Assembly (NCBI GenBank): GCA_900318955.1
Contig: ONMJ01000001.1
Location: 163,381-227,380, forward strand
Length of the DNA: 64,000 nucleotides
Source of the DNA: an uncultured Bacteroidales bacterium
GTDB lineage: Bacteria; Bacteroidota; Bacteroidia; Bacteroidales; UBA932
Direction: 5' to 3'
Shown: positions 38,775-64,000 of the stretch, one piece after another
How positions within the stretch are numbered: the stretch's first letter is position 1
Layout: every line of letters starts with the position of its first letter
Program-made: the position numbers and the translations under genes
The notes under the pieces: model-generated
Told to the model about the DNA's origin: nothing
The model's database searches: none
Seen by the model: only the letters and a program-made list of their open reading frames with translations

Positions 38775-38830
38775 TGTGGTGTACTGTGGTATCACTTGGC
38801 AAAGATAAGAATAATAGATAAATTATCAAA
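38775..38830 (-). promoter_or_regulatory. Promoter with PUL operator element, upstream of DUF4988 lipoprotein
   Basis: On the minus strand TTTG (38830-38827), a 19-bp spacer and TATCTTTG (38807-38800) form a full Bacteroidetes promoter. Just downstream, plus-strand TGTGGTGTACTGTGGT (38775-38790), a TGTGGT direct repeat around GTAC, would block transcription start if bound. The same element occurs at 57148-57163 and, with one mismatch, at 58280-58295. Confidence 0.75.
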
Positions 38831-39854
38831 AGGTAAATCGCATGTTCATGCGGAATGGGCTATGAATTTTTTCCATATGCCTGTTTATAATCATATCGGC
38901 AGCCATCCGGCCCATCAGAGCGAAGTCTGTGGAGACTGTTGTAAGTCCTCCGAGGATGAGTTCATCCATTTCAGATTCATTGTATGAAATTATCTGAACA
39001 TCGTCTCCGATTGCGAGTTTGGCCTCGTGTATGGCGTGGGTAAGGGATACGAGACCGGCGTCTCTTTGAGAATTGAGCACCAGGAAAGTGTCTCCTTTAT
39101 TAATATCTTTCGGAGCCGAATTGAGATACTCGACAAGTACCCCATGTTCTTTTGAGAAACGGTCGACTCCTTTTCGGATACATGGGCCGTACAAGGAGGT
39201 CGGAAGGGTGATAACGCGCAATTTGCTGATATGCCTTTGAGCTTTGATTCCCTGGTTCAACCCATCGTAGATGTCATTCTCGAAGTCCTGATAGACTGCG
39301 CCGTAGTTATTGCCGGTATATCCGCTCAGAACATGGTCAAGCATGATCAGCTTCCGGTTGGGTATACGGGAAAGCTGCTTGACAGCGCGTGCTTGAGAGT
39401 CGGGATCAAGAGGGAAGTGGGGAGTGACCACGTAATAATCGAAACTGTCCAGATAGTTGTCAAGGTAGTATTGGAGAAGATCAAGACTTTGGTTGTGGTT
39501 TACTATAGTCACTTCGGCCTTACCGCTGAGCGATTCTGCGAATGCGTTGAAGAGAATCTGCTTATAGACCGAGAATTTGTCGAAAATGGCAAGGACCTTT
39601 GGAAGACCAACCTTCTGCAGGTCTGCTGCGTAGAATCCCTTTCCCTGTTTTGGAACGATAAGATTCTTGTTCACAAGTACCCCATAGGCCTTTTTGACCG
39701 TTTCCTTGGAGATATTCAATTTTGCGGCCAGCTCGTTCATGGAGGGAATCTGCTTTCCCGCCTTAAGGATGCCGTCGTGCATTGCTGTTTCAACCTGAGA
39801 AACCAGTTGTTTGTAAAGTGATACTTTACTGGTCGGATCGATTCTGAATTCCAT
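38826..39854 (-). CDS. GntR-family regulator with LacI-type sensor domain
   Basis: 342 residues. Residues 8-78 are a GntR winged helix (SLYKQLVSQVETAMHDG, GKQIPSMNELAAKLNISKET, IVPKQGKGFY). The rest is a periplasmic-binding-protein-like sensor (about 90-330), including YDYYVVTPHFPLDP-type strands and QIISYNESEMDELILGGLTT. This architecture is typical of sugar-responsive regulators such as AraR. It is the last gene of the minus-strand PUL operon, 19 bp after the FN3-glycosidase gene, and therefore likely autoregulated through the operator upstream of the isomerase gene at 57133. It probably represses until a sugar is present. Confidence 0.9.
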   Translation of the reverse strand: MEFRIDPTSKVSLYKQLVSQVETAMHDGILKAGKQIPSMNELAAKLNISKETVKKAYGVLVNKNLIVPKQGKGFYAADLQKVGLPKVLAIFDKFSVYKQILFNAFAESLSGKAEVTIVNHNQSLDLLQYYLDNYLDSFDYYVVTPHFPLDPDSQARAVKQLSRIPNRKLIMLDHVLSGYTGNNYGAVYQDFENDIYDGLNQGIKAQRHISKLRVITLPTSLYGPCIRKGVDRFSKEHGVLVEYLNSAPKDINKGDTFLVLNSQRDAGLVSLTHAIHEAKLAIGDDVQIISYNESEMDELILGGLTTVSTDFALMGRMAADMIINRHMEKIHSPFRMNMRFTF

Positions 39855-39873
39855 ATTCTTGTCTGTTATTATA

Positions 39874-41214
39874 TTATCTAAGGAAAAATCCGAGAGTTGT
39901 GACTACCGGCCTGTTCCCGCCGGTAAGGTCGTTGAGGTGGCCTCTATCTTTTACCCACATTCCGGTTGAACCGCCTCCGTCGAGATTGAGCGCACCTATG
40001 CAGCCGAGTCCCTTCATTATCTTTGCCATTTGTAGGGTGGTTGCTCCATCTGAGCTTGCGATTCTTCCGTCGCAGATGAGTAGGATTATGGTGCCGTCTT
40101 CTTTATAACCGACAGCAGTGCGGTCAGGATGCTGAGTAACTCCGAAGATATCGTCGGCCCAGAGCTCGTAATTGGTCTCCCAATACCCTCTGGCGGTCTT
40201 TTCATTGGAGATTGGACATTTTCCGTCCTTTAGCAGAACCGGTCCGCAGGTGATAGCATTGAATGGAATCCATGAGGAAGGGATGCAGGGGTAGGAAGTA
40301 CTTCCGATGGGGCAAACTGTCTCACCGGCAGTGGACGGAATGGGCTTGTCATATACATAGACCGTCCCGTGCTCAGGCGTGAATGACCAGAAGACGCCTG
40401 GTACGCCGCTTCTGTCAACTCCGAAGAGCCCTCTTGACACTGGGTGCAGCTTCCCGTCAGCGCTCCAGTATTCTCGGTCAATACGGATCTTATCCTCGTC
40501 TTCGGATACTCTCCAAGGGGTCTGGACTCCGTCATTAATCGCAAAACCTATCGGGCGTAGGAACTTTCCGCTGAAAATGCCCCCGTTGATAAGGACCAGG
40601 CATTTCTCATTTGCCTCTGCTTGCTGGTCTATTGTAAGGGTTTTCTGGTCGCCGGGGAAAAGGACTTTGAATTCGACAGCTCCGTCGCATCTTGCAGAGG
40701 CGTACCATGCGTGGAAAGGTTTCCCTTCAAGAGGTTCCTCTGTTTTATAGACCTTTACATCTCCCGGAAGGGACAGTCCGCTGACTTCTGTCCAGTTGAA
40801 ACGAATAGTTTCCGAAGGGTCTTCATCCTCCGGCTCTTTTTCTGCAGCCGGAGTCTTCAGAACGGGAAAATCTTCCCGCAGCGAGAGGGCTCCGTCGTTT
40901 CTGAATGCCTGCAGGGAATAACGGTATTCGCTCTCAGGGAGCATGTCTTCCGCGAGGAATGTTGTAGTATTCTGTGGAAGAACTATCCTGTTTTGCTGCA
41001 ATCCCGTGCTTCCTTTTACAAATAGATAATATCCGTCCTCGTCCTTGCAGTTGTCCTCCCATACCAAGGAGGCACTTGTTGGGTTAACGAGCGAAGCCGA
41101 GAGACTGGTAGGCGAGGGGAGAGTATCCGCCGATGCCGGCTGCTTTCCGTCGCATGCCGACAGTGAGATGATAAGGAGGGAGAGAGCTCCGAATATTGAT
41201 TTATTCCTTTTCAT
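39874..41214 (-). CDS. Lipoprotein with FN3 and phosphodiester glycosidase (NAGPA-like) domains
   Basis: About 446 residues from the ATG at 41214, which begins the signal peptide MKRNKSIFGALSLLIISLSA with lipobox Cys. It overlaps the preceding gene by 14 bp. Order: fibronectin type III-like region (SLSASLVNPTSASLVWEDNC, about residues 35-120), a linker, and the phosphodiester glycosidase domain (about 190-446) with CLVLINGGIFSGKF, PFNAITCGPVLLKDG, IILLICDGRIASSDGA and ALNLDGGGSTGMWV. It is predicted to face the cell surface or periplasm and to cleave sugar phosphodiesters or related bonds. Its paralogue at 32971-33819 lies outside the PUL. Confidence 0.85.
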   Translation of the reverse strand: MKRNKSIFGALSLLIISLSACDGKQPASADTLPSPTSLSASLVNPTSASLVWEDNCKDEDGYYLFVKGSTGLQQNRIVLPQNTTTFLAEDMLPESEYRYSLQAFRNDGALSLREDFPVLKTPAAEKEPEDEDPSETIRFNWTEVSGLSLPGDVKVYKTEEPLEGKPFHAWYASARCDGAVEFKVLFPGDQKTLTIDQQAEANEKCLVLINGGIFSGKFLRPIGFAINDGVQTPWRVSEDEDKIRIDREYWSADGKLHPVSRGLFGVDRSGVPGVFWSFTPEHGTVYVYDKPIPSTAGETVCPIGSTSYPCIPSSWIPFNAITCGPVLLKDGKCPISNEKTARGYWETNYELWADDIFGVTQHPDRTAVGYKEDGTIILLICDGRIASSDGATTLQMAKIMKGLGCIGALNLDGGGSTGMWVKDRGHLNDLTGGNRPVVTTLGFFLR

Positions 41215-44200
41215 AAACAAGAACATCCAAGTCATATTGTCCTAAATCCAACTTTTGGGACCGTAGAGGGGTAAAGTCGAGATCCCTTCCTTCCACAAAG
41301 CGGTATCCGGGGACATCAATAATTCCCTTCTCCCTTCTGTCACCTGTGTTGGTGACTACAATGGCCATTCTGTCTCCGGAGCGGAAACTCCTTGCGGTAA
41401 GCTCCGGATTAGAGCAGGTGAATCCCTCAGTGGCGGTGTATCGACCCTCCAGCAAAAGCTCTGGCCACGCATGTCGGAGAGCATTGATTTTGGCAAGATG
41501 GGCCTGATATACAGGTGTTTCATCGATTAGCCCGCGGCAGCGGAATACCTCAATATCGTTGCGGAGACCCTTTAGGAGGGTATTATTAACCCTTCTCGGC
41601 ACATCGTTATCGTCCCTGACGCATCTATCGCTCCATATCACCTCCGGGAAGGTGTAGCGGAACCACTCGGGGAAACTCTCAGGAAGTGCTGTAAACTCAA
41701 CTATATGGACAAAGTCGCAGAACTGGCTGGTGCAATCGCTCAGCCATTCCGTACCGAGGGCGAATTCGGGGTCTTTAGCCTTTATATGGTCGCGTATTTC
41801 TCGAAGCGCATCTGCCTTATAGGCTCCTGTGTAGATATCTTGGACCGGGTATTCCCGGGAAAGGTCCCAGTTCGGAAACTCTTCAGCCACACCGAGTTGG
41901 TCATAGAAAACAGCATCGGCCCCATAAGACATTGCCCTGTCGGCCCAGTCGAGGAGCTGATCCCGCCAAAGGCGCTTTGACATATCGGCAATCACAAAGG
42001 TTCGGGAGTCGTAATAGCCGAGGGTGGTCCCTTGCCCGGTAAATTTGTAATGCTCCGTGAATTCTCTTCCGGTATTGTCCTTATTTGAGACAAGGCGACC
42101 TCCGCCATTTCTGTAGAAATCGCTTTCTACGTCGATCAGACGTCCGTTGAAGTACAGAAGCAGGCGATTCCCCTTGGACCTGTAGTTGGCAATTGCCTCC
42201 TTCCATGCCTCATCTCCACCCTGAGAATCATCGACTGTATAGTTTGGGTAACCGTTGTCCATACCTTCCTTCCACCATCCGAAGGCCAAGACGGCGTTGC
42301 ATCCTACGGATTCTCCAGCAGAGGCTATCCTTCCCGGGAGGTCAGTATACTTTCTAAGGTACTCTCCGTACTGGTGCTTGAATATTATCCGCTGCCATCC
42401 GGTCATATCCTGAACCCATTTCGGGACATCTGAGTGCTTCCACCAGGTGTCAGCCCACTTCCTGTATATCCTTGAGGTTGCCGTCCAATCGCCCTCGTAA
42501 GGAGCGACCACGGAGGCGTCATTGCTCCAGGAGTCCCCGCACATCGCGTTCGGATATCTGTAAAAACCGGCTTCCAGATGCTTGAAATCCGTTGTTGTGT
42601 GCCCGATTGTCCCTTCGTCAGGGTAAGTTCTGAGACCGTGCCATGTCTGCTGAAGAGAAACATCATGAGATCCGAAATACAGTCCGTGCTTCTCTCCGAC
42701 GAAGGCGAAGCAGTTGGAGGCTGCATTGCGAGGATACTGCAGATCGTACTGGCGGAACTTTTGAGCCGGGGTCATGTAGAGAGGACGAACGTCTACGTTT
42801 GAGATCTTCCAGACGGGGTTATCGAAAACTTGTCCGCCCGTATGGGTGGTGAGAAGCTTGTAATCAGCAGGGATCTGAAGATGGCCGATAAGGGGATACT
42901 GAAGCTCCCTGATGATGGTATGGGGCTCCCTGTTTTCAAGGGATGCACCAAATCGGACAAAAGTCCCTTCCGTCCATATTTTAAGGCACAGGGAGAACTC
43001 TTTGCCCCCGACCTTGTCGTAATTTAGGAAGATGGTATCTGCCTGCTTGCTGATAAGAGGCTTCTCGTCAGCCCCCGAGACTTCGATTTCCTTTTCCTCG
43101 GGAGTATTGTAATACAACCTCCAGAGGGGGGCTCCTCCTGCATAGTTCCTGCCGCCAAAAGAGAGCTTTACCAGGCGCCCGGAGGCGTCAATATCTATCT
43201 CAGTCTGAGGTAGTTCTCCGCGGTTCCCCAGAACGAAACGGCAGATATCATTGTAGAGAGCCTGATCTTGAGGAAGGGGTGATTCTGCGAGCTGGGTGAA
43301 CGAATTGGTCCCGGAGTAAAGAGCGATGGATTTTCTTCCGTAAAAGCCTGCATCCTTGTACTCTTTCATATAGCGCCTGACCCTGTCCTGAAGTGCCGGG
43401 ACGTCGGAAGGAGAGAAGATCAGTTTCCCGTCGCCGTCCGGTCCAAGACTGCCGGACCCCATCTGAGCTGCAACAGCAGAGTATTCCATCTCAAGCTCCA
43501 TCCCGCCAAGGGAGGCTTCATTAATGGCTGAAATCGTCTTTTCAAACGGATGGCGCCCCTCTGCCTTAAGGTCCCAGTACCAGTTCGGCTGCATCCAGAC
43601 CTGGTCTATACCAAGTTTCTTCCAGTACTTGTACCCGGGGGCAAGATGATATGGAATCCAGTACAATCCTTCTCCGGCGCTGTGGCAATACTCAGAAAGC
43701 CTCGGAACAATGTCCTCCCAGTTTTTGTAGCGGGAGTTGACATCAACATCATATGGAAGGTATAATTCTTCCGATGTGATATAAAAGCCGGCGAGTTCCA
43801 GATATTTGCACTGAAGAGATGAGAACATCTCCCTTGCGCTGTCTATGTACCATTTCAGGGCCTTCATCCTGTCATCGACGCTCGAAAAATCGAGTTCGTC
43901 CCCCCAGTAGGTAGTGGCGGAGGTCTTATCGGCGAAGTTTTCAAACATTATGGCATCCGGGATCCCTATGATAACTCCGCGTTTCCGAGCCGGGTCTCCT
44001 ATTCTTGATGCAACATCGGCACAGGCTTTTTCCAATTCGTATACGCCGCCTCCATCTCCAAGCCAGAGATCCAATTGATACTTCCACACTTCCTTGTCTG
44101 CGGAAACACCGGAAGGTGAGATGGTCAGATTCTTTCCATGAATCCAGTCCGATCCTTCCAAAAAGAGGAAGGCCTCAAAGAGCCAGTGTTCGCTCCCGTC

Positions 44201-44374
44201 AGGGGTTTTCCAGCTTACGTGGGGAGCGAAGCGGGAGGCATCCCAGCTATAGGGCTCGCGATGCCAGTAGCCGACGAGGGTGACATCTGTGAATGTCCGC
44301 GGCTCGGAAATAGTTTTTTCCGAAGAGCAGGAAATCACCAGAATCGAAGCTATGATAATGAGTATCTTTTTCAT
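41201..44374 (-). CDS. DUF4855 plus glycosidase-like (DUF6259-type) fusion lipoprotein
   Basis: About 1057 residues from the ATG at 44374, which forms an ATGA overlap with the upstream DUF4855 gene. An 11-codon longer start lies inside that gene. Lipobox VISCS. Residues 25-400 are DUF4855 (HWLFEAFLFLEGSDW, KYLELAGFYITSEELYLPYD, YHLAPGYKYWKKLGIDQVWM), homologous over their length to the preceding gene. Residues about 405-650 look like a beta-sandwich, and about 650-1057 a TIM barrel (FGWWKEGMDNGYPNY, GADAVFYDQLGVAEEF, FALGTEWLSDC) of the DUF6259/GH-like type. Catalytic acids cannot be named with certainty. Probably cleaves glycan from outside the cell. Confidence 0.8.
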   Translation of the reverse strand: MKKILIIIASILVISCSSEKTISEPRTFTDVTLVGYWHREPYSWDASRFAPHVSWKTPDGSEHWLFEAFLFLEGSDWIHGKNLTISPSGVSADKEVWKYQLDLWLGDGGGVYELEKACADVASRIGDPARKRGVIIGIPDAIMFENFADKTSATTYWGDELDFSSVDDRMKALKWYIDSAREMFSSLQCKYLELAGFYITSEELYLPYDVDVNSRYKNWEDIVPRLSEYCHSAGEGLYWIPYHLAPGYKYWKKLGIDQVWMQPNWYWDLKAEGRHPFEKTISAINEASLGGMELEMEYSAVAAQMGSGSLGPDGDGKLIFSPSDVPALQDRVRRYMKEYKDAGFYGRKSIALYSGTNSFTQLAESPLPQDQALYNDICRFVLGNRGELPQTEIDIDASGRLVKLSFGGRNYAGGAPLWRLYYNTPEEKEIEVSGADEKPLISKQADTIFLNYDKVGGKEFSLCLKIWTEGTFVRFGASLENREPHTIIRELQYPLIGHLQIPADYKLLTTHTGGQVFDNPVWKISNVDVRPLYMTPAQKFRQYDLQYPRNAASNCFAFVGEKHGLYFGSHDVSLQQTWHGLRTYPDEGTIGHTTTDFKHLEAGFYRYPNAMCGDSWSNDASVVAPYEGDWTATSRIYRKWADTWWKHSDVPKWVQDMTGWQRIIFKHQYGEYLRKYTDLPGRIASAGESVGCNAVLAFGWWKEGMDNGYPNYTVDDSQGGDEAWKEAIANYRSKGNRLLLYFNGRLIDVESDFYRNGGGRLVSNKDNTGREFTEHYKFTGQGTTLGYYDSRTFVIADMSKRLWRDQLLDWADRAMSYGADAVFYDQLGVAEEFPNWDLSREYPVQDIYTGAYKADALREIRDHIKAKDPEFALGTEWLSDCTSQFCDFVHIVEFTALPESFPEWFRYTFPEVIWSDRCVRDDNDVPRRVNNTLLKGLRNDIEVFRCRGLIDETPVYQAHLAKINALRHAWPELLLEGRYTATEGFTCSNPELTARSFRSGDRMAIVVTNTGDRREKGIIDVPGYRFVEGRDLDFTPLRSQKLDLGQYDLDVLVYEKE

Positions 44375-45900
44375 TTTTTCAGATTGGATCCTATGATAAA
44401 TTGGCAAAGGTCATTATACATCTCGCGGTCACCAGGATCTGACGAAGTCGCCAGCTGGTGCATCGCATCTGTCCCTGAGTAGACCGCAATAGGGATTTTA
44501 CCGTATTGGCCGGTATTCTTGTAGGAGAGCATATATTCGCGTACCCTTTCCCTTAGCATCGGCACATCCTTGGCGTAGAAAGTCGGATTCCCGGCTCCGT
44601 CGGGCCCGGAACGACCGTCGGACATAATGCTATAGACGGGCGAATACTCGAACTCGAGTTCCATCCCCATCTGATACTTTCGGATTGCATTTTCTGTTGC
44701 GGACATGGGATGGGATACCCCGTCATGATCCCAGTAATAGTTGGGCTGCATGAAGACATTGTCAAAACCGAGTTCCTTCCAGACTTTATAACCCGGGGCT
44801 AGATGGTATGGTATCCACCAAAGGCCCTCCTTGCAGGAATGGGCGTAAGAAGAGAGCCATGGGACTATCAGCTCCCAATTCTTATGATTCCAGTTCCAGG
44901 TATCGGCGCTATCGAAGGTCTCTCCGGCTGCTTTATAGAAAGCCGGATTGAGCGGAAGCTCTTCAGAAAGAACGTAAAATCCGGCCAATTCCAGGTGCTT
45001 GAAATGCCGGGAATAGAATAGTTCCCTGCAACGGTCCATATACCACCCGCAGGCCTTTTCCTGATCGGAGACTTCAGCGAAATCGAGATCTTTCCCGCTA
45101 AGCTTTCCCCAGTACGTAGTTGAGGAATTCTTGTCTTGAAAATACTGGAAACGTATAGGGTCGGGGATGCTCATTATCACATACCTCGAAGCCGAGGGAG
45201 TACCTAGTATAGAGCTAGCGCGGCTGATTGCAGCATCGAGTCTGATCAGAGCCCCGTTTTCTCCAAGCCAGGCATCCAGAAGGTCTTCCCATGAGTCTTT
45301 ATCGGCAGAATATCTCCCGTTTGCGATACTGTATGAAAGGTTCCTGACGGGGTCCCATCCGTCGATGCATAGAAATGCATCGAAAAGCCAGTGGTTCTTC
45401 CCATCCGGATCTTGATACAGGACATGTGAGAGGAACCGTTCCTCCGTCCAGGCGGGAGGATTGTAATTGTGCCAGCCCATTGTAATCAGGGAAACATCTG
45501 CAAACGAGGGAATTATACTCCTTTGAGACTCCCATGGGTACAGACTCTCAGGCCCTTTGGTGGTTGAAAAAGGGACCTTCAAAACTGTTCCTTCTTCGCC
45601 GGAAGGCCCGATTCCCACGATGAACAATTCATAGCTTGTCAGAGGCTGGAGGCCGGAAAGACGAACAGTGCACGTTACAGGCCCCTCAGAACCGGTTTCC
45701 AGGGTTTCTGACATTTTTTCATCGATCCCATAGCGGAGTTTCCCGGTATTAATGGATTGGACCGAAAAGGAGGCGTCAAAGGCGGTGGCCTCAATCAGCT
45801 CGGCCCGTATAGCCGGAGTAACAGGTTCAGCGACCGGCTCCTTCTCCCCGCAAGAAGCCAGGAGAAGGAGTCCGATTGCTATGACCTGCCATTTATTCAT
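44371..45900 (-). CDS. DUF4855 lipoprotein with FN3-like N-terminal domain
   Basis: 509 residues with lipobox LASCGEK. Residues 25-115 form an FN3-like domain (LSGLQPLTSYELFIVGIGPS), and residues 125-500 DUF4855, with KNHWLFDAFLCIDGWDP, KHLELAGFYVLSEELPLNP, YHLAPGYKVWKELGFDNVFM and MELEFEYSPVYSIM. Structure predictions for this family usually give a TIM-like barrel, and a hydrolase role is often supposed. It is a clear tandem paralogue of the first third of the next gene. It overlaps the DUF1735 gene by 8 bp, keeping the SusCD-downstream operon continuous. Confidence 0.82.
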   Translation of the reverse strand: MNKWQVIAIGLLLLASCGEKEPVAEPVTPAIRAELIEATAFDASFSVQSINTGKLRYGIDEKMSETLETGSEGPVTCTVRLSGLQPLTSYELFIVGIGPSGEEGTVLKVPFSTTKGPESLYPWESQRSIIPSFADVSLITMGWHNYNPPAWTEERFLSHVLYQDPDGKNHWLFDAFLCIDGWDPVRNLSYSIANGRYSADKDSWEDLLDAWLGENGALIRLDAAISRASSILGTPSASRYVIMSIPDPIRFQYFQDKNSSTTYWGKLSGKDLDFAEVSDQEKACGWYMDRCRELFYSRHFKHLELAGFYVLSEELPLNPAFYKAAGETFDSADTWNWNHKNWELIVPWLSSYAHSCKEGLWWIPYHLAPGYKVWKELGFDNVFMQPNYYWDHDGVSHPMSATENAIRKYQMGMELEFEYSPVYSIMSDGRSGPDGAGNPTFYAKDVPMLRERVREYMLSYKNTGQYGKIPIAVYSGTDAMHQLATSSDPGDREMYNDLCQFIIGSNLKK

Positions 45901-47875: not shown

Positions 47876-47883
47876 TTTATGGC

Positions 47884-49911: not shown

Positions 49912-49924
49912 AACTGCTGCTCGT

Positions 49925-52900
49925 TTAGAAGTTCAAATTCAAGCCGAGGCTCACGTTCCGTGTAAGCGGATAGACGTTGCCGTATGAAGAAGAGAGTTCG
50001 GGATCCCACAGTTTGAACCCGGAGAAGGTCAGGAGGTTCACTCCTTGGAGGTAGATTCGGATAGTTGACATCCCGATTCGCTCAGAGACCTTCTTAGGCA
50101 GGGTATATCCAAGCTCTGCATTTTTCAGCCTCAGGAAACTCATGTCTTTCTGCCAGAAGGTGGATGCACGTAGGTTATTGGCAGGAGTCTCAGTGGCAAA
50201 ACGGGGATATTCTGCGTCAGGCTGATGAGTAACCGACCAGCTTTTCTCGGCTACGTCTGCAAATATCTGCCCCTGAACCTTGACGTTCGTGGCGGCGCCT
50301 CCGTAGAGGTTGTAACCTCCGATGATCCTGGTTACGTGGGACATGCCGCTGAAAAATACCGAAGCGTCGATTCCCTTCCAGCCGAGTGAAATACCAAATC
50401 CGTAATTTATTTCAGGTACTGAAGTATAGCCGATAGGAACAACATCGTATGCGTCGACCTGACCGTCTCCGTTGATGTCGCGGTATTTGATGTCTCCGGG
50501 AGAGACTGCTCCGAAGGTTTGTTTCGGCCAGGCGGCAATCTCCGCTTCGCTCATGAATAAGCCTTCGGCGATTAGGCCTCTCTGCTGTCCGTTGGCAAAT
50601 CCGGCGGTATTCTGGTAGGGCCACACCTGCGAAGGTTTGTCGTCATACATGCGCTTATTGCGGTTGAAAGTATAATTCCCTCGCATTGAAAGGTTGAGTC
50701 CATTCGGGAACATATATTCGAACTGGGCGGAAGTATCGAATCCGGAGTTCTTCATCTCACCAATGTTGGTGTATTGGGTCTTCCTCATTCCGACTGCTCC
50801 CGGGAGGCTCTGCCTTTCGATAAAGATGCCGCTGCGGTAGTCGTTGAAATAGTCAACCTGCAGCTTGAGGTGGTCTGCCCAGAAGTTGATTTCAACGCCC
50901 ACATTGCGTTTCAGCGCCTCTTCCCAGACGATTGCTGGGTTGCCGATGTCACCTGTCGTAACTCCGGCGGTATAAACAGGATTTCCGAGTCCCCAGTTGA
51001 ATCCGCTGATGCCGCTTGTATCCATCGTTGTATTGTATCCGAAACGGCGGTTTCCACCAATCTGGTCGTTACCGACCTTTCCGATTGAGGCCTTGATCTT
51101 GAGGAGACTTACCCATGATTTGATGGGATCCCAGAATCTTTCGTTCGAAATAATGTATCCGACGGCTCCGGAAGGGAAGAAACCGAATCGGTGGCCGGGA
51201 GAGAAGTTTTCGGAACCATTGTAACCGAAGTTGAACTCGGCAAAATAGCGGTCACGGTAGCTGTAGGTAGTTCGACCGGCAATACCCATGCTCTTGTAAG
51301 GGAATGTGTTCCAGTATGTTCCGGGATTGATATTGGTCCTTTCCCTTAGGTAGTAGAGGAACATCGCTCCGACTCTGTGGGCACTGTTGAAACTGCGCTC
51401 GTAATTGGCGGAAGCTTCCAGATTGAGAATGGTCTGCCCGGATACTGATGAATTCGAAGTATTGATGTACCCGGTCCCGCTGTTGGCCTGCAAGATGTAT
51501 TCCGAAAGATCGTCGCTCAGGTAGTATACCCTCGGGCGGATTACGTTGGTATAGGCGGTGTTACTCTTGGCGTCCCAGGAGAGCTGTACCTTTGTGGTAA
51601 GGCCCTCGAGCAGGAAATCAGAGTAGTCCTGGGTGAGCGATACTGTCGTCTGTGCATTTTGGGTCGAGGTGATGGCATAACCCATATTGTTGATAAGATT
51701 GTAGGGGTTGCTGCCGGTCACCGGATTTGAAAGAGTGCCGTCACTGAATACCATAGGAAAACCAATCGGAGTGATTTGCAGAGCGGCGGCATAAATGTCG
51801 CTGAGGGAGCTTCCGGGCTGGTTTTTCCTGGTGAACTGGGTGCTAAGGTCCATTCCCAGCACAGTGGACTTGGTAATGTTGATATCCACATTTGTACGGA
51901 AATTGAACCTCCTGTAATTCATCTGGGCATTGTATCTCCCGTTATCCGCAACATTGAAAATACCGTCTTCGAAGTAATAGGATCCTCCGGCATAGTAGCG
52001 GACATTTTTGGTACCGCCGACAACGGCGATATTGGCCTTGCGGGTAGATGCTCTCTCCTTGAAGATCTCATGGATCCAGTCTACGTTGGGGTAAATATCT
52101 TTATAAAGAATCGGGAGGGCTCCTTCCTCTTCGCTCACCCTCTGTGACCGTACTGCGTCGGACGCAAGATACATCGACCTGCTATAGTCATCTATAGTGC
52201 CCGGGGTCATAGTGTTGAGGTAGTCTATGAATTGGGCGGCAGATGCCATCTCGGGAAGCATAGTAGGGGCGGTAAGTCCGCTCTCGATCTTGACGCTGAC
52301 CTTTGGCTTGGATTCGCTACCGCGTTTGGTTGTAATCAGAACGATTCCGTTAGCTCCTCGGACTCCGTAGAGAGCAGTCGCAGTAGCATCTTTAAGGATG
52401 GAGAACGAGGCTATGTCTTCTGTGTCCACAAGGTCCATGGATCTCTCTACTCCGTCAACCAGGATGAGAGGGTAAGCATTTGCACCAAAGGTGTTTACAC
52501 CGCGGATCCAGAACTCTGCGCTGGATCCCGGCTCTCCGCTGTGCTGGACGGCTACTACGCCTGCCAGTTTTCCGGCAAGACCTGTGGAGAGCTGTCCGAC
52601 AGGGACCTGGAGCTGGGCTACATCTACAGATGAGATGGATCCGATGACAGAAGCTTTCTTCTGTGCGCCATAGGCAACCATGACAACCTCGTCGAGCTGG
52701 TTGGCCTGGGGAACCATCTTCACCAGAATGTCTTTCTGGCCTCCGACCGTAATCTCTTCGTCATTGTAACCCAGGAAGCTGAATATCAGAACGTCGGTCG
52801 GCTTGACGGAGAGCTGGAAGTGACCGTCTTCGTCGGTCATCACTCCTCTTGTCTCTCCCTTCACCGTGACGAAGGCTCCGGCGATGGGAGCTCCTGTCTC

Positions 52901-53005
52901 ATCCTGCACCAGTCCCTTCAAGTTGCCATCTTGCGCTGCGGCTTCCCTAATAGGGACCAGCAGCAGGCCAATGACGGCAAGCATGGAAAAGATTCTTTTA
53001 AGCAT
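49925..53005 (-). CDS. SusC/RagA family TonB-dependent outer-membrane transporter
   Basis: About 1026 residues from the ATG at 53005, where the signal peptide MLKRIFSMLAVIGLLLVP begins. The longer frame to 53119 runs into the ROK gene. Order: carboxypeptidase-regulatory-like domain (KGLVQDETGAPIAGAFVTVK), TonB-dependent plug with GVNTFGANAYPLILVDGVER and GIVLITTKRG, then a 22-strand-type barrel ending NVSLGLNLNF. It imports oligosaccharides released at the cell surface using TonB energy, together with the downstream SusD. It lies 13 bp after the ROK kinase gene, so transport and cytosolic sugar genes share one operon. Confidence 0.96.
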   Translation of the reverse strand: MLKRIFSMLAVIGLLLVPIREAAAQDGNLKGLVQDETGAPIAGAFVTVKGETRGVMTDEDGHFQLSVKPTDVLIFSFLGYNDEEITVGGQKDILVKMVPQANQLDEVVMVAYGAQKKASVIGSISSVDVAQLQVPVGQLSTGLAGKLAGVVAVQHSGEPGSSAEFWIRGVNTFGANAYPLILVDGVERSMDLVDTEDIASFSILKDATATALYGVRGANGIVLITTKRGSESKPKVSVKIESGLTAPTMLPEMASAAQFIDYLNTMTPGTIDDYSRSMYLASDAVRSQRVSEEEGALPILYKDIYPNVDWIHEIFKERASTRKANIAVVGGTKNVRYYAGGSYYFEDGIFNVADNGRYNAQMNYRRFNFRTNVDINITKSTVLGMDLSTQFTRKNQPGSSLSDIYAAALQITPIGFPMVFSDGTLSNPVTGSNPYNLINNMGYAITSTQNAQTTVSLTQDYSDFLLEGLTTKVQLSWDAKSNTAYTNVIRPRVYYLSDDLSEYILQANSGTGYINTSNSSVSGQTILNLEASANYERSFNSAHRVGAMFLYYLRERTNINPGTYWNTFPYKSMGIAGRTTYSYRDRYFAEFNFGYNGSENFSPGHRFGFFPSGAVGYIISNERFWDPIKSWVSLLKIKASIGKVGNDQIGGNRRFGYNTTMDTSGISGFNWGLGNPVYTAGVTTGDIGNPAIVWEEALKRNVGVEINFWADHLKLQVDYFNDYRSGIFIERQSLPGAVGMRKTQYTNIGEMKNSGFDTSAQFEYMFPNGLNLSMRGNYTFNRNKRMYDDKPSQVWPYQNTAGFANGQQRGLIAEGLFMSEAEIAAWPKQTFGAVSPGDIKYRDINGDGQVDAYDVVPIGYTSVPEINYGFGISLGWKGIDASVFFSGMSHVTRIIGGYNLYGGAATNVKVQGQIFADVAEKSWSVTHQPDAEYPRFATETPANNLRASTFWQKDMSFLRLKNAELGYTLPKKVSERIGMSTIRIYLQGVNLLTFSGFKLWDPELSSSYGNVYPLTRNVSLGLNLNF

Positions 53006-53018
53006 AAGTATATTATGT

Positions 53019-53831
53019 TTATTTATTTTTAAATAATGTTGAAAGGCCTTCAAATACAGCTCCTTCCGGAACGGAGAGGATACTGATGCCGCTAAGCTGA
53101 TCTCTAAGGGAACCCTCAAAAAGGCTCATAGATTTTGATATCTGTCCTCCGAGAAGGAGGGTCTCGATTCCGAGTTCATCTATTATCCCTTTAAGAGCTT
53201 CTCCGAGCGTTTCTCCAAGGTCGTGGAATACTCTTATTGCAGCATCCTCTCCGTTGTAGGCCATTTCGGCAATGGAGAGGACACTCCGGTTATTGTCTCC
53301 CGTCAAATTATTATATGCCGAAAGAATACCTCTAGCCGATACCCGATCTTCAAGTATGCCCCCGTCGCAGAGGGGAATGTTCCATAAACTCCTCGCCGGA
53401 GATCCCATCTCGTTGTATCTGACCTTTCCTTCAAGCGCAAAAGCGAATCCGAGACCGGTCCCAAGAGTGACTACTGCCGTATTTCCTTTCTCCAGTCCAA
53501 GCTGACGGATAGCTCCTAGGAGAAGGGCATTGACATCATGATGGAATTTCAGTTCAATTTCCTCCCGAAGACCTAAGAGGTCCCTGAAGGAAAGTCCATA
53601 GACCGATTGGAACTTATGTTTCATCAGGAAGATTCCATCGCTGTAGTTGAATGGGCCGGGGATAGCGACTCCTACTCCTTTAAGCCTGTCCAGGGGGCCT
53701 ACGGCCTCTTTCAAGGCAAGAGAAATTGCGTCCTTGCTCCCGTTTGAAGGAACAGGGATCTGCCTTCCGTCGGAGCATTTGATGAAAGTGCCCCCAACGT
53801 CCAGAAATCGGTATTCCTTAGAGTACAACAT
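53019..53831 (-). CDS. ROK-family sugar kinase
   Basis: 270 residues. The ATP-binding motif is RFLDVGGTFIKCSDG, followed by GVGVAIPGPFNYSDG and VVTLGTGLGFAFALEGK. The usual zinc-binding CxCGxxGCxE motif of many ROK proteins is missing; the corresponding part reads LCDGGILEDRVSARG. ROK proteins phosphorylate glucose, mannose, fructose or N-acyl hexosamines, and loss of the zinc site does occur in some active kinases. It overlaps the upstream phosphomannose isomerase-like gene by 14 bp, making mannokinase-like activity plausible, but the substrate is not proven by sequence. Confidence 0.87.
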   Translation of the reverse strand: MLYSKEYRFLDVGGTFIKCSDGRQIPVPSNGSKDAISLALKEAVGPLDRLKGVGVAIPGPFNYSDGIFLMKHKFQSVYGLSFRDLLGLREEIELKFHHDVNALLLGAIRQLGLEKGNTAVVTLGTGLGFAFALEGKVRYNEMGSPARSLWNIPLCDGGILEDRVSARGILSAYNNLTGDNNRSVLSIAEMAYNGEDAAIRVFHDLGETLGEALKGIIDELGIETLLLGGQISKSMSLFEGSLRDQLSGISILSVPEGAVFEGLSTLFKNK

Positions 53832-55662
53832 CCTGGAATCCGTCTCTTAGAAGGGTTTTATGGACACAAATCGGCTCAGCACCGAGATTCTCAATGACAT
53901 AAGCACCTGTATCAGCGGGGACTACGACAATGTCCATGAAACGGGCTTCATACGAGCGCTCCGGATGGGCGACGCTGCGGATGCGGATATGCTCTCCGTC
54001 AACAAGAGTCAGCACGTGGAAGATCCCCTTTGTATCTTGAGAGCAACTCTTCTCGAATTCCAGACGCCTAAGGCTGAAATAGAGTTGAGGATTCTCTCCG
54101 ACAATATACTCCTTCCATCCTTCACCCTCATCTGCGAGACGGGGCTTCTGGACTATGTAATCCTTGCTCTCAGGGTCATGGATTATAGAAGTCCGGCGCT
54201 CTTGATTGACATTGAGTTCACCGAGTTTGGTATGGATCGGCCTCTGTTTCCCATCGAAGTCGAGGCGGAGGTAGTCGTACATCTTATAGGTGTAGGAACC
54301 AATTGTGAGAGAGCCGATTTCAAGAATAACCTGGTTGCGTCCGCTGGAGTGGATAGTCCCTGCAGGAAGCATCACCTGGAGGCCGGGTCTGGACTCCTCG
54401 TAGCTGACATATTTCATGTAATCGACGCTCTTATGCTCTGTGTCAGCAGCTTCTATGTCTTTGAAGAATTGAGGGATATCGGCATCGTCCCTGAAACCTA
54501 TGAAGGTCTTCGCATCGTGGCCGGTGATAACTACGTAGTAGCTCTCGTCCTGACGACCGAACTCGTTGTAATGCTCTTTGTTATAGACGCTTCCACTGTG
54601 GCACTGGATGCTCATGTTGCCGGTTGAATGGTAGCTGTCGTCCCAGTTGAAGCGGATAGGGAAGTAGCCATTGAACTTCTCAACTACGGATTCTCCGAGC
54701 ACTTTCGCCCCTTCTTTCATGAAGAAGGTAGAGAAAGGAATCTCGAGAACCGTCCCGTCCACATCTACGAGGATGCTGACTTCCATCGGAATCAGGTCGA
54801 ATACCCATGCTGCGTTTCGCATCTGATCGGGAAGCTTCCTCAGTTTTTTCATGTATGTGCCTCCCCATACGCCTTCGAGATAGACCGGTTTGCACCGGAA
54901 AGGATAGTCAGCAAGAGAAGCGGTAATCTCCGAGAAAGCTTCGTACGGAAGCAACTTCATGTCATTGGGGTAGTCGTTCTCAACGTAGAAATCCACGTTC
55001 CCCTCAGAGGAGAGCAATTCTTTTCTCAAATGGACGGCGACCTCGAAATCGCAGTAGTAGCAGCGGCGGATGATAAGGGGAGTGGTGAGCGGAGAGCTCA
55101 TCCCGAGATTGATGTACTGCCCTCGGCGAATACGAAGGATACTTTCCTTAGGAGTGACGTCCAGGTAGATCTTGTACTCATAAAGATTGCGGAGTTCCGG
55201 TATAAGGCAGCCCTGTCCGAAGACTATGAGCACTTCTTTTCCCTGCTTCCCGAGTTCATTTGCCAGAGCCTGCTTCTTCTCGTTATCCAGAAGTCCTTCG
55301 AAACCGCCCTTGTATACTTTTCCAAAGAGGAGAGTCGGATCCTCGGAACGGTCCCAACTGAGATTTTTGTCTACAATCTCCCATAATTCCCCTTCGCTCT
55401 TATAGCAGTCCCTGAAGTTGATTCTTCGGGTTTTAAAGCCCCTGACATGAAGCTGTGCTTCAAGAAGGTTCACGGTGCGCTCGAAATCTGCTCCGACGTA
55501 GCCGTCTACTGCGAAAATGCTGCCTTCGTGAGCCTTTGCCGCGAGATAAGCTGCAACTTTTACGCTTCCTTTTACAAGTTGCTTTGAGGTTCCTTTCCCA
55601 ATGGCCGGACGGTTGACGGGAGTCTGGTCGTCAAAGGGAAAGGGATTATACATGAAACTCAT
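53818..55662 (-). CDS. Class I mannose-6-phosphate isomerase-like protein with N-terminal degenerate kinase-like domain
   Basis: 614 residues, much longer than ManA (about 390). The N-terminal 230 residues resemble a uridine-kinase-type P-loop fold, but the Walker A site reads AVDGYVGADFER, without the GK-S/T, so nucleotide phosphorylation is doubtful. The C-terminal 350 residues are a cupin, with CKPVYLEGVWGGTYMKKL, FNWDDSYHSTGNMS and the metal-site-like PAGTIHSSGRNQVILEIGS. A phosphomannose isomerase would link mannose-6-phosphate to fructose-6-phosphate. The other possibility is another hexose-phosphate isomerase or sensor. It lies 7 bp after the isomerase gene. Confidence 0.8.
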   Translation of the reverse strand: MSFMYNPFPFDDQTPVNRPAIGKGTSKQLVKGSVKVAAYLAAKAHEGSIFAVDGYVGADFERTVNLLEAQLHVRGFKTRRINFRDCYKSEGELWEIVDKNLSWDRSEDPTLLFGKVYKGGFEGLLDNEKKQALANELGKQGKEVLIVFGQGCLIPELRNLYEYKIYLDVTPKESILRIRRGQYINLGMSSPLTTPLIIRRCYYCDFEVAVHLRKELLSSEGNVDFYVENDYPNDMKLLPYEAFSEITASLADYPFRCKPVYLEGVWGGTYMKKLRKLPDQMRNAAWVFDLIPMEVSILVDVDGTVLEIPFSTFFMKEGAKVLGESVVEKFNGYFPIRFNWDDSYHSTGNMSIQCHSGSVYNKEHYNEFGRQDESYYVVITGHDAKTFIGFRDDADIPQFFKDIEAADTEHKSVDYMKYVSYEESRPGLQVMLPAGTIHSSGRNQVILEIGSLTIGSYTYKMYDYLRLDFDGKQRPIHTKLGELNVNQERRTSIIHDPESKDYIVQKPRLADEGEGWKEYIVGENPQLYFSLRRLEFEKSCSQDTKGIFHVLTLVDGEHIRIRSVAHPERSYEARFMDIVVVPADTGAYVIENLGAEPICVHKTLLRDGFQDVVL

Positions 55663-55669
55663 ATCTACT

Positions 55670-57133
55670 CTATCTTATATTGTAAAAATCAAATCCCATA
55701 ATTTCGGCAAAAGCTTCAAGCTGCGGCCTGTAATCTCCGTCCACGACTGCGTAATGCTGGGTGACGCCGATTTTCAGGACCTGCTCAAATAGCTGCTTTA
55801 CAGGTACTTCCGGTCTGAAAATGGTATGGCTGTAGGTGGCCAGAAGATGCTTTTTGTCGCTCTGGGGGGTGTCCTTGGCATCGAGGCTTTCTGCCATGAA
55901 AGTTACCAGTTTGTATCGGCCGCTTTGCTCGTAAAGGCCGACTACTGTCTTCATTCCGGGGCTTATGCGATACCAGGCGAATGGAGCACCGGCATATTTC
56001 CAGGAAGTTTTAGCAAAGCGGACATCCCTTGAGATAATTACATTATCCTGCCAGGCTGGGTCGTTATGGTCATTTGGACCTGCATGTCCGCCCGCGAATG
56101 TCCCGAAGTCATTCTCAATATGGAAAGGTTCGATGAAATTGACATTCTTTCCGCTAAGCAACTTGAGAATATATGTAGCAAGTCCGGCTCCTATATCGGC
56201 TTCCGGTACGAGTACGCTTACATTGTCATTGAACCACTGAGGATAGAATCCGGCACGGCATCCCGCGGTACGGAAAGTAGCCTGGTCGATATCGTTGTAG
56301 ACGTAACAGTCGATATCGTTTTTCTCAGCCATTTTCTTGATGGCAAGGGTAGCCTTTACGCATCCGATGAATTTGTCGTATTCTACATCCGGCATCATCT
56401 TGTAGCGCCCTGTCAGCTCGTCCGCGTAAGCTTTGACCTCCTCATCCGTGAGGGCGTCAATCTCTGCTCCGTAGTCGCTGTAGGGGAGATAATGGATTTC
56501 GGGCCCTATCTTGGTGAACAGGTCGTAATTGTCGATATAGGTGCTCCACATCGCTTCGTTCATGTTCGCCATCAGTCCTACGTTCGAGTGGCGGAGAATC
56601 GAGCGGACACGCGCGGCTTCAGCGAAAATGCGTACTTTCTCTGTAATCTCTTCCCTTGTCCCCATTACGGTGCGGACATTTCTTCTCGGAATTCGTTTCA
56701 GACTACCGGAGCCCTCCAGAGAGCCGACAAGCGTGCCTGCGCAGAGATAATCCACGAAGTCATCCTCGTCCAAAGTGGTCTCGAAACTCATCCTGGGCTT
56801 TGCTACATTGCAGAAGATTATAGGCATCTCTGGGCAGTCCCTGAGGAAACGTATCCAGGCGAAATCTTCGCTCCAGGAAAGGAATTCTGCGTATACGAAG
56901 TCTACATCCTCCGCGAAAAAAAGATGTAGAGCTTTTTCGGCGTCTTCACGCTCATATACTATTCCGGGGTCGACTATATCCAGAAAGTCCAGAGTGGCTT
57001 TTATCTCACGGACGGCTTTATCTTTCCGTTCTCCGTAAGTTCCTCTCTTCGGACCATATAGATTCTTGAATCTTGGGGATGCTATAAGAAGCATTCCCAC
57101 CTTCGGCTTGCGTTGTTTGTCGTTAGTGTTCAT
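55670..57133 (-). CDS. L-fucose/L-arabinose isomerase family protein
   Basis: 487 residues. The layout matches sugar isomerases of the FucI/AraA superfamily: an N-terminal Rossmann-like part (RKPKVGMLLIASPRFKNLYG), a central part with EFLSWSEDFAWIRFL and a C-terminal metal-binding region with GKNVNFIEPFHIENDFGTFA and GGHAGPNDHNDP. The reaction would be aldose-ketose isomerisation in the cytosol. The substrate is not clear from sequence, and the identity to characterised L-fucose isomerase is likely low. It is the first gene of the PUL operon and its promoter (57148-57195) carries the shared operator element. Confidence 0.8.
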   Translation of the reverse strand: MNTNDKQRKPKVGMLLIASPRFKNLYGPKRGTYGERKDKAVREIKATLDFLDIVDPGIVYEREDAEKALHLFFAEDVDFVYAEFLSWSEDFAWIRFLRDCPEMPIIFCNVAKPRMSFETTLDEDDFVDYLCAGTLVGSLEGSGSLKRIPRRNVRTVMGTREEITEKVRIFAEAARVRSILRHSNVGLMANMNEAMWSTYIDNYDLFTKIGPEIHYLPYSDYGAEIDALTDEEVKAYADELTGRYKMMPDVEYDKFIGCVKATLAIKKMAEKNDIDCYVYNDIDQATFRTAGCRAGFYPQWFNDNVSVLVPEADIGAGLATYILKLLSGKNVNFIEPFHIENDFGTFAGGHAGPNDHNDPAWQDNVIISRDVRFAKTSWKYAGAPFAWYRISPGMKTVVGLYEQSGRYKLVTFMAESLDAKDTPQSDKKHLLATYSHTIFRPEVPVKQLFEQVLKIGVTQHYAVVDGDYRPQLEAFAEIMGFDFYNIR

Positions 57134-57147
57134 ATATTTCAGTTATC

Positions 57148-57195
57148 TGTGGTGTACTGTGGTGCAAAAGTATGAAAAAATACAATAACCTGCAA
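57148..57195 (-). promoter_or_regulatory. Main PUL operon promoter with operator element
   Basis: On the minus strand TTG (57195-57193), a 20-bp spacer and TACTTTTG (57172-57165) form a good Bacteroidetes promoter. The plus-strand element TGTGGTGTACTGTGGT lies at 57148-57163, one base after the -7 box, overlapping the expected transcription start, so binding would repress. It is 14 bp before the isomerase ATG. Confidence 0.75.
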
Positions 57196-57211
57196 CTATT
57201 CCAGAAGAATC

Positions 57212-58276
57212 TTACAAGCCAAAGTATTCCCGATAGCGGTCGTAGAGGTGCCCAGCCTGGAGATAGGCGCTCTGCGGGCTCATGAAATGGCTGAATTCGA
57301 AAGTGATGGCCTTGTCATATCCGCATCGTCCGGCCGCTTCCAGTTTTAGGCGGAGCTTGTCGAACTTGATGGGGAAGAACTTGATTGGCATGTCTCTGTC
57401 AAAGCTTTCGGCATTGGTCCAGCACTTCATCCCGTATTTGTCCGCAAGTTTTTTGTTGACGCTGAAGAAGGCGTCCAGCTCGTCATAGTCTATATGACCG
57501 TCCTGGAAGGCGCAGGCGTCCACATACTCGTGGATTCCGTCGAAGATCTCGTTCCACTCCCTCTCATGTTCCTCGACAGAGACAGCGTCAGCCCTGCTCA
57601 GGGCAGAGGAATTCGCTGCAACCGACTTTTTTCCGTCAATCCATGGGGATATGAATGTCGGAAGTCCGCCGGAAACTTCCTTGCATTGCCTTCCCATTGT
57701 CCTGAAGCTTTCAATGGCTCCTTTGGTCGCTCTTGAAATCTCTCCGGAAATGTACCAGCCGCCGAAGCTCGGGTACTTTTTCCCATAGCGTTCCCAAACT
57801 TCCTCGATTACGTATTTGTTCGATTCCACCTCATAGCTCATGTCGCCGGTGTCCCAGTATCTGCCGCTGTCGTATAGGCCCAGCATGAAGGTCATTCCAT
57901 ACTTCTGGGCAAGGCGGCAGAACATATCTATAAGGTCGACCGAAGGCATGTAGCATCCCTTTTTGAGAAGGTAAGGCGAGGGGTAGGTTATGAATTTCCG
58001 GTATCCGCAGCGGATATCGATAACTGTATCTATACCTATATCCTTCATATAGCGGAAATCCCTGTCCCATTCCTTTTCTCCCCAGTTCTGATGGGGAATA
58101 TCATGGGAGATCTCGTCGAGGAAAGTGCCTGTAATAGGAAGGGCATTCCCCTTCGGAACAATCAGGTTGTCATTGACGGGAGCATCCTCCTGCCGGCAGC
58201 CTTCCAAAGCAGGGGAGACCATTGCTGCCGCAGCTGCCATAGCGGTTTTCTTGAGGAAAGATCTTCGATTTTCCAT
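57212..58276 (-). CDS. Exported DUF4434 domain protein (TIM-barrel type)
   Basis: 354 residues. A twin-arginine-like signal (ENRRSFLKKTAMAAAAAMVS) precedes Cys in EGC, so it may be a Tat lipoprotein. DUF4434 follows, with ITGTFLDEISHDIPHQNWGE, YMKDIGIDTVIDIRCGYRKF and FGGWYISGEISRATKG. This family is predicted to be a glycosidase-like TIM barrel and occurs in PULs. Glu in YISGEIS is a candidate catalytic acid, by analogy only. The gene is divergent from the AGE epimerase and shares a control region with it. The 77-bp gap behind it holds the promoter of the main PUL operon. Confidence 0.82.
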   Translation of the reverse strand: MENRRSFLKKTAMAAAAAMVSPALEGCRQEDAPVNDNLIVPKGNALPITGTFLDEISHDIPHQNWGEKEWDRDFRYMKDIGIDTVIDIRCGYRKFITYPSPYLLKKGCYMPSVDLIDMFCRLAQKYGMTFMLGLYDSGRYWDTGDMSYEVESNKYVIEEVWERYGKKYPSFGGWYISGEISRATKGAIESFRTMGRQCKEVSGGLPTFISPWIDGKKSVAANSSALSRADAVSVEEHEREWNEIFDGIHEYVDACAFQDGHIDYDELDAFFSVNKKLADKYGMKCWTNAESFDRDMPIKFFPIKFDKLRLKLEAAGRCGYDKAITFEFSHFMSPQSAYLQAGHLYDRYREYFGL

Positions 58277-58279
58277 AAC

Positions 58280-58339
58280 TGTGGTGTACTGTGTTTCTTT
58301 TTTTTACGCAAAAGTATTATTTTTGTCCGGATATACAAA
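58280..58339. promoter_or_regulatory. Divergent promoter with operator element (DUF4434 / AGE operon)
   Basis: The minus-strand promoter is TTTG (58339-58336), a 19-bp spacer and TACTTTTG (58316-58309). The plus-strand -7 is TATTTTTG (58318-58325), with a weak -33. The element TGTGGTGTACTGTGTT (58280-58295, one mismatch to the other two copies) lies 13 bp downstream of the minus-strand -7 and near the plus-strand -33 region, so one protein could control both directions. Confidence 0.7.
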
Positions 58340-58350
58340 AATAACCACCT

Positions 58351-63688: not shown

Positions 63689-64000
63689 TCAATTGCGGAA
63701 AAAGAAATAATACGCCGCTTGGTATAGAGGTATTCCGTCAGCATGGCCTACGATTCGGTATGAGGCGTCCTGTATGGTCCCGTCAGACTTGATGTGACCT
63801 ATGATTCTATAGCTGGAATCCTGCACTGTTCCGTCGTTTTTGATATGGCCGATAATTCGGTAAGACTTGTCCTGGACAGTCCCTCCTTTGAGGTAACCGA
63901 CGATTCTGTACGACGAGTCTTGGATAGTCCCATCCCTTTTGAAATGCCCGGTTATCCTGTAAGACGCGTCCTGGATGGTTCCGTCAGACTGGATATAGCC
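63689..64000 (-). CDS. Repeat protein, C-terminal part, 5' truncated by window edge
   Basis: 103 residues are visible ending at a TGA at 63689. Reading from the right edge, four 17-residue units and one of 16 follow one another, with a consensus close to GHIKSDGTIQDASYRII (the third lacks one residue), then a 19-residue tail ending in aromatic AAYYFFFRN. The short Gly-Asp-Gly repeat resembles the Bacteroidetes proteins annotated as 5-fold beta-flower, in which each repeat makes one petal; this is by eye only. Function unknown. The start and any signal peptide lie beyond the window. The gene is convergent with the GH127-like gene. Confidence 0.72.
   Translation of the reverse strand, partial: GYIQSDGTIQDASYRITGHFKRDGTIQDSSYRIVGYLKGGTVQDKSYRIIGHIKNDGTVQDSSYRIIGHIKSDGTIQDASYRIVGHADGIPLYQAAYYFFFRN
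63749..64000 (-). repeat. Five tandem repeats of about 51 bp
   Basis: Units 63950-64000, 63899-63949, 63851-63898 (48 bp), 63800-63850 and 63749-63799 encode the 17-residue repeats. Third-codon positions differ between units, so the repeat is old rather than a recent expansion. Further copies could lie beyond the edge. Confidence 0.9.

Follow-up and report, generated by a model that had tools for sequence, protein, structure and literature searches.

Genes and element copies at the locus

We analysed a 64,000-nt stretch of DNA (the window) from an uncultured Bacteroidales bacterium with a 2.40 Mb genome. The window carries a polysaccharide utilization locus (PUL) that includes a gene for a GntR-type regulator, P0001, and three copies of a 16-bp element, TGTGGTGTACTGTGGT. 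As the first-pass annotation had noted, the element is exact at 38775–38790 and 57148–57163 and has one mismatch at 58280–58295. Four matches with up to three mismatches occur in the window, compared to a mean of 0.14 in dinucleotide shuffles (0 of 100 shuffles reached four). The fourth match (39494–39509, three mismatches) lies inside gntR and recurs in genome G295 at an identical distance from the gntR start; because of this recurrence it is probably a case of coding conservation. The right end of the window (position 64000) is the end of contig C66, and the right flank of the PUL lies beyond these data.

All three copies are on the minus strand and follow −7 boxes of the form TAnnTTTG at gaps of 9, 1 and 13 bp, read directly, in agreement with the 1 to 13 bp given earlier. 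Operator 1, as we call the first copy (ACCACAGTACACCACA on the coding strand), lies in the promoter TTTTG-19-TATCTTTG-9-site, with TTTTG at 38827–38831 and the −7 box at 38800–38807. It stands 35 nt before the start codon of its presumed target, a DUF4988 lipoprotein gene (36484–38739, minus strand; Pfam DUF4988 over cut-off).

Operator 2 (57148–57163) lies in the promoter TTG-20-TACTTTTG-1-site, with TTG at 57193–57195 and the −7 box at 57165–57172. This promoter precedes a SusCD operon on the minus strand, first described as having eleven genes; we counted ten open reading frames between 57133 and the end of gntR. The first operon gene (55670–57133) perhaps encodes a distant relative of AraA/FucI-like sugar isomerases, with matches that are all weak and below cut-offs (NCBIfam E 1.7e-4; Pfam E ~0.01; PDB 4lql, E 0.018). 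The second (53818–55662) encodes a 614-aa protein with no Pfam match, in which residues 251–478 are ManA-like (mannose-6-phosphate isomerase; PDB 1qwr, E 5.5e-6). A ROK-family sugar kinase (53019–53831; PF00480, E 1.5e-13) is followed by SusC and SusD (47884–53119). The SusC open frame spans 49925–53119, with a true start probably near 53005, and SusD spans 47884–49911. Genes for BT_3987-like_N, DUF4855, DUF4855/DUF6259 and NAGPA proteins (39874–47875) come next, and gntR (38826–39854) is the last gene of the operon.

Operator 3 (AACACAGTACACCACA, 58280–58295) lies in the promoter TTTTG-19-TACTTTTG-13-site, with the −7 box at 58309–58316, and ends 3 nt before the ATG of a DUF4434 gene (57212–58276, minus strand). 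The product is a homologue of PDB 4h41, a putative alpha-L-fucosidase (E 2.4e-189). The AACACA variant of operator 3 occurs at the same place in loci L295 and L302. On the plus strand, a divergent gene for N-acyl-D-glucosamine 2-epimerase (AGE; 58351–59529; NF052547, 653 bits against a cut-off of 600) has its −7 box, TATTTTTG, at 58318–58325 (read directly). Operator 3 ends 22 bp upstream of this box, in the −33 zone, and probably controls the AGE side as well. AGE is followed by a sugar-porter gene of the major facilitator superfamily (MFS; 59529–60818; TIGR00879 over cut-off).

P0001 consists of a winged helix-turn-helix (HTH; residues 13–75) and a LacI-type periplasmic-binding fold. The winged HTH scored 47.9 bits against PF00392 (curated cut-off 27), which places the protein in the GntR family, and Peripla_BP_3 was also over its cut-off, giving the C-terminal LacI/periplasmic-binding fold of the AraR-type subfamily. 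The best NCBIfam similarity was to the PdxR HTH (E 4.1e-15), far below the model cut-off. The AlphaFold model had a mean pLDDT of 88 and a pTM of 0.76, and its best 50 Foldseek matches included LacI, PurR and CcpA. P0001 was the sole GntR protein of its type found in its own genome, where the one other GntR-domain match was in a 118-aa open frame. We observed no site in the 260 bp before the window gntR at up to four mismatches. Autoregulation, as first proposed, would therefore run through the operon promoter only, and not from a site directly before gntR.

Layout, conservation and promoter position of the element

On the coding strand the element reads ACCACA-GTAC-ACCACA, a head-to-tail repeat of about (RYACCACASY)x2. 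We counted TGTGGT half-site pairs in 103 sequences, made up of 80 relatives (described below), the stretches that we fetched and the window, without removing duplicates. A spacer of 4 accounted for 69 direct repeats, and none of the other spacers between 0 and 30 gave more than 3. Inverted pairs occurred at most once per spacer and order, and the palindrome reading was rejected, as no inverted half-site arrangement was enriched. In the non-redundant set used for column and promoter-gap counts (n = 63), the middle four bases were G/C, then T/C, then A (54 sites), then C (51 sites). The flanks outside the search pattern repeated with the 10-bp unit: position 16 was G or C only, position 17 mostly T, position −2 mostly a purine and position −1 mostly a pyrimidine. 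As the flanks share the unit, the full operator is suggested to be about 20 bp long, with two RYACCACASY copies one helical turn (10 bp) apart. A third in-step half-site was found in L159, and a weak third one in G248. The first-pass annotation did not mention the direct-repeat layout. G124 and G215 stand apart from the rest of the subfamily: their site before gntR (TTTGTTGTACTGTGGTACACAACACC) shares bases with the −7 box and seems partly palindromic.

We assessed conservation in relatives of the regulator. A named-genome scan gave 246 relatives, of which the best 80 of 246 were kept as loci. They total 1.14 Mb, include some near-duplicates and carry titles that place them in Bacteroidales or Bacteroidia (Alistipes among them), mostly from ruminant and herbivore gut. 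These loci contained 24 exact copies of the element, 50 copies at up to one mismatch and 69 at up to two. The 12 permuted controls gave no exact copy and no more than 1 and 2 at the two looser levels, and the reversed element gave 0, 0 and 12. The element is thus kept in orthologous loci, and the conservation expected of a real element held. At 26 of the 62 other non-redundant sites, the best window match of the downstream gene was again DUF4988.

The element also co-occurred with gntR. We screened 299 family genomes at E 1e-30 and found a GntR orthologue in 20, including a weak match in G211 (27% identity) whose upstream region is outside the site count. The exact sequence ACCACASYRYACCACA was present in 7 of the 299 genomes: 6 belong to the 20 with an orthologue and 1 to the 279 that lack one (Fisher P = 2.8e-7, with related genomes counted as independent). 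That last genome, G058, has its copy inside a coding frame. Counts per genome at up to three mismatches did not separate genomes with and without gntR among the matches listed. When 260 bp upstream of gntR were searched at 21 places, 13 had a copy or variant at up to three mismatches. The half-sites before gntR changed with clade, with TGTTGTGTAGTGTGGT in G010, G064, G107, G229, G260 and G287 and TGTGATGTACTGTGAT in G248.

A same-strand TAnnTTTG box was present 1–16 bp before 52 of the 63 non-redundant sites. The gap was 1 bp in 13 of these and 6–16 bp in 39 (mode 9), and such a box at such a distance was found at 64 of 16,000 random positions in the 80 loci, coding regions included. For a check independent of the motif, we queried 14 genomes picked from the 80 with the MFS protein of contig C40 (see below). 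A match by protein similarity was present in 12 of the 14 genomes, and all 12 MFS genes with a readable 5′ end (L303, which has none, excluded) carried the element, with no more than one mismatch in its 16 positions, placed 1 bp downstream of the −7 box. The position of the sites just downstream of −7 boxes fits repression, as had been proposed.

The own genome had seven matches at up to three mismatches, and just the three window copies were within one mismatch, so that copies scattered at random did not appear. Beyond the window copies there was one match with two mismatches, on contig C40, and three with three. With the middle free, ACCACA-N4-ACCACA was exact three times, at 38775, 57148 and C40:38800. 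A relaxed scan allowing 2 mismatches of 12 gave 85 matches compared to 68 for the reversed control, which is about background, and weaker targets therefore cannot be named.

The C40 copy lies 37 bp before an MFS gene that is followed by a GH39-like gene. This MFS protein shares 86.5% identity with one whose gene adjoins gntR in G293, and many relatives have related MFS genes (46–84% identity) in the stretches that we fetched. In G107, G260 and G287 the genes next to gntR run GH39-like, MFS, then homologues of the window's isomerase-like, 614-aa and ROK kinase genes. Because MFS-GH39 relatives adjoin gntR elsewhere, the regulon seems to follow genes and not the PUL border. The perfect half-site pair on C40 runs counter to the first-pass proposal of a single local regulon, and the accompanying claim that the element defines the borders of the PUL was rejected for the same reason. 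Not all sites lie within the PUL as assembled, although C40 may adjoin C66, the window contig, which stops at the right end of the window. We do not favour C40 as a contaminant. Over 20 kb, its GC content was 0.512 compared to 0.483, and its 4-mer distances to three window chunks were 0.178, 0.148 and 0.119, compared to 0.106–0.165 between chunks.

Direct repeats before related regulators

We searched for exact 6-mer direct repeats upstream of 82 related regulators (330 nt ending 10 nt inside the gene). The set came from phylum and order searches (40 + 42). The first search contributed 40 of 43 non-own places (G417, G472 and G452:C8 excluded), and the second 42 of 52, with the own genome and G010 (already covered) and 8 short partial matches excluded. 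L226 and L252 belong by score to the subfamily of P0001 and neither has an exact period-10 repeat; L255 contributes just a short upstream stretch. A period of 10 was found in 33 of the 82 upstream regions and any other period from 6 to 30 in 0–6, and 100 shuffles gave a mean of 2.83 at period 10 (maximum 8). After clustering at 60% identity, period 10 was found in 23 of 56 clusters (shuffle mean 1.92, maximum 6). Control upstream regions of other genes in the same loci had period 10 in 10 of 174 and other periods in up to 21. Clustering at 45% left 11 clusters, with period 10 in 4 compared to period 7 in 3 (shuffle mean 0.27, maximum 2). Because 11 clusters are too few to decide, the class-wide claim rests on the 82 and 56-cluster counts. 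Inverted 6-mers at spacers 0–20 occurred in 1 to 10 of the 82 paralogue upstream regions with no single peak.

Of the 33 paralogue repeats, 21 were no more than 52 bp away from the start of gntR. A TAnnTTTG box in its strict form accompanied 8 of the 33 at a distance of −4 to 20 bp, in 7 cases on the same strand (same-strand random control, 232 of 4,100 positions). Because few paralogue repeats have a strict box, the promoter position is well shown for the subfamily of P0001 only.

The half-site varied together with the recognition helix when both were compared by eye (G248 protein excluded as misframed): ACCACA with ISKETVKKAY, ACCAGT with SRDTV[LM], and ACAG repeats with SRDTVFKA. In 11 of the 34 genomes tested, the gene of the ACAG clade immediately preceded fucI, and in two more it was no further than 3 kb away. 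The 11 fucI-adjacent members had an exact period-10 repeat in 6 cases and imperfect repeats in the others. We call this clade FucR because of its fucI neighbourhood, and its repeats are probable FucR operators. Exact or imperfect ACAG-type repeats before a gntR next to or near fucI were seen in L271, L273–L276, L278, L279, L286 and L289–L292, an example being CAGGACAGTACAGGACAG in L273. In another clade (L215, L218–L220, L250, L258), ACCAGT-N4-ACCAGT direct repeats precede gntR.

Judging from these counts, we lean towards the view that Bacteroidota GntR/LacI-fold regulators form one class that reads head-to-tail half-sites one turn apart, with the half-site set by the recognition helix. The half-sites would typically lie near the start of the regulated gene, unlike the two-fold symmetric AraR/LacI pattern. 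To our knowledge, the operator is known for only a few of the GntR-type regulators that govern sugar loci in Bacteroidota. If the view is correct, a simple rule (a 10-bp direct repeat near the promoter with a clade-set half-site) would allow operators and regulons to be predicted from protein sequence for many sugar regulators in Bacteroidota that are still uncharacterised.

Readings of the element and related systems

We read the element as the operator of the GntR/LacI-fold regulator encoded at 38826–39854, which would repress from over the transcription start. We give a probability of about 0.88 to this reading together with a regulon made up of the DUF4988 gene, the ten-gene SusCD operon with gntR, and the DUF4434 gene; the divergent AGE gene and the C40 MFS-GH39 operon probably also belong to it. 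The comparison strongly supports the operator nature of the element, and with it the link to gntR and the three local promoters that the first-pass annotation had proposed. The unusual layout and its apparent recurrence across the class are, in our view, the interesting part.

In the proposed mechanism, the two half-sites stand head to tail 10 bp apart, and each would be contacted by one winged helix of a dimeric regulator, the two helices lying next to each other on the same DNA face. Without inducer, the protein would occupy the start of the transcribed region, directly downstream of the −7 box, and block initiation. A sugar or sugar phosphate derived from the PUL substrate may bind the LacI-type domain and release the regulator. 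Because a direct repeat places both helices in the same direction on one face, the tandem site would either break the two-fold symmetry of the core or be bound by head-to-tail dimers, as described for MocR regulators in PMC5320631. The layout raises a structural question, since an asymmetric tandem site has to be bound by a dimer built around a LacI-type core.

Several observations weigh against the operator reading. The exact form is missing in 14 of the 20 orthologue genomes, although 11 of these have a variant before gntR. No site was found in the 260 bp upstream at 8 of the 21 gntR places, namely the window, G295, the first copy in G293, both copies in G254, G294 (cut by a contig end), G227 and G149. 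The window, G295, G293, G254 and G294 have exact sites elsewhere despite this, and G149 and G227 have none before gntR at up to four mismatches. No same-strand −7 box occurs within 45 bp of 11 of the 63 sites. The sites are strongly biased towards one orientation with respect to transcription, a bias that a block acting on DNA alone would not require. On C40 the site points the opposite way with respect to its −7 box, and the MFS encoded there most closely matches MFS genes found next to other GntR clades; this copy could therefore have been left behind by a paralogue that has since been lost. Finally, the LacI-type half would be expected to dimerise with two-fold symmetry, which is awkward on a direct repeat.

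Among the alternatives, a role of the GntR protein as an activator or dual regulator, and not a simple repressor, fares best and is still unlikely. It would suit the AGE promoter, where the site falls in the −33 zone and precedes the −7 box. However, most sites (52 of 63, and 12 of 12 before MFS genes) lie downstream of the −7 box, where activators rarely bind. FucR is a repressor released by fucose, and this too speaks against an activator.

We consider it very unlikely that the element acts in RNA, as ACCACA repeats at the start of a 5′ leader that are recognised by an RNA-binding protein or affect translation or mRNA stability. The A/C-rich strand is indeed the coding strand just after the −7 box in 52 of 63 sites, and the DUF4434 site ends close to the ATG. 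However, reversed sites stand at good −7 boxes on C40 (gap 11) and in L144 (gap 10) and L145 (gap 5), which speaks against an element acting in RNA alone. L144 and L145 do have, in addition, a weaker TAnnTTTA that immediately precedes the site on the usual strand. The 10-bp period, the co-occurrence with gntR and the clade-varying half-sites also fit a DNA-binding dimer better.

The weakest alternative is an operator of some other PUL-conserved regulator, for which the AraC-type gene at 33832–34725 in the window or an unlinked LacI/ROK protein would be candidates, and it is made most improbable by the copy or close variant before gntR itself at 13 of 21 places, by the tracking of gntR by the element across 299 genomes, and by the same 10-bp architecture with other half-sites before many paralogous gntR genes.

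We compared the predicted system with known ones. AraR of Bacillus subtilis has a GntR winged helix followed by a LacI-type domain, and its operators are palindromes. P0001 shares this domain order, with HTH similarity to 4egy (E 2.7e-5). The operators differ, as P0001 is predicted to bind the direct repeat, seen 69 times at spacer 4, and not an inverted pair, seen at most once per spacer. According to PMC4494728, whose own set of factors includes one from Bacteroidetes, AraR is a minor GntR subfamily, and typical GntR operators are palindromic, with FarR, NagQ and NanR as direct-repeat exceptions. GntR HTH domains on direct repeats are on record for GabR, TauR and PdxR as well as NanR, FarR and NagQ (PMC5320631, PMC4494728). 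These regulators have aminotransferase, FadR or HutC C-termini and differ from P0001 in their other domains, and also in their half-sites.

FucR (BT1272) and ManR (BT2103) of B. thetaiotaomicron are GntR regulators according to PMC3878776. FucR, of the fucRIAKUP genes, shares with P0001 the GntR family. The clade that we call FucR has the same GntR/LacI-fold homologues and ACAG-type repeats, the name coming from its neighbourhood and not from a comparison with BT1272. This clade and P0001 differ in half-site, recognition helix and targets, with a single target operon given for FucR in PMC3878776 compared to several here. P0001 has as neighbours a SusCD PUL and isomerase-like, ROK and DUF genes, and not fucI with a single fucose operon. 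A direct repeat may already be drawn for FucR in the supplement of PMC3878776 that gives the FucR and ManR motifs. ManR links mannose uptake and conversion to a SusC/D PUL (PMC3878776), and this regulon logic resembles that of the window (MFS, kinase, ManA-like, SusC/D), a likeness of gene content and not of compared sequences. In a literature search with most subscription journals outside its scope, we found no mention of the 16-mer and no published account of a GntR direct-repeat rule in Bacteroidetes.

The AraA/FucI-like (weak), ManA-like, ROK kinase and AGE proteins lead us to guess at an aldose or N-acylhexosamine pathway as the route of the substrate. The 614-aa gene is kept beside gntR in several relatives, and its product is perhaps a new type of sugar isomerase fusion. 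The DUF4434, AGE and sugar-porter MFS genes (57212–60818) resemble as a set the sialic-acid/N-acetylglucosamine genes of B. thetaiotaomicron, here placed under a GntR site.

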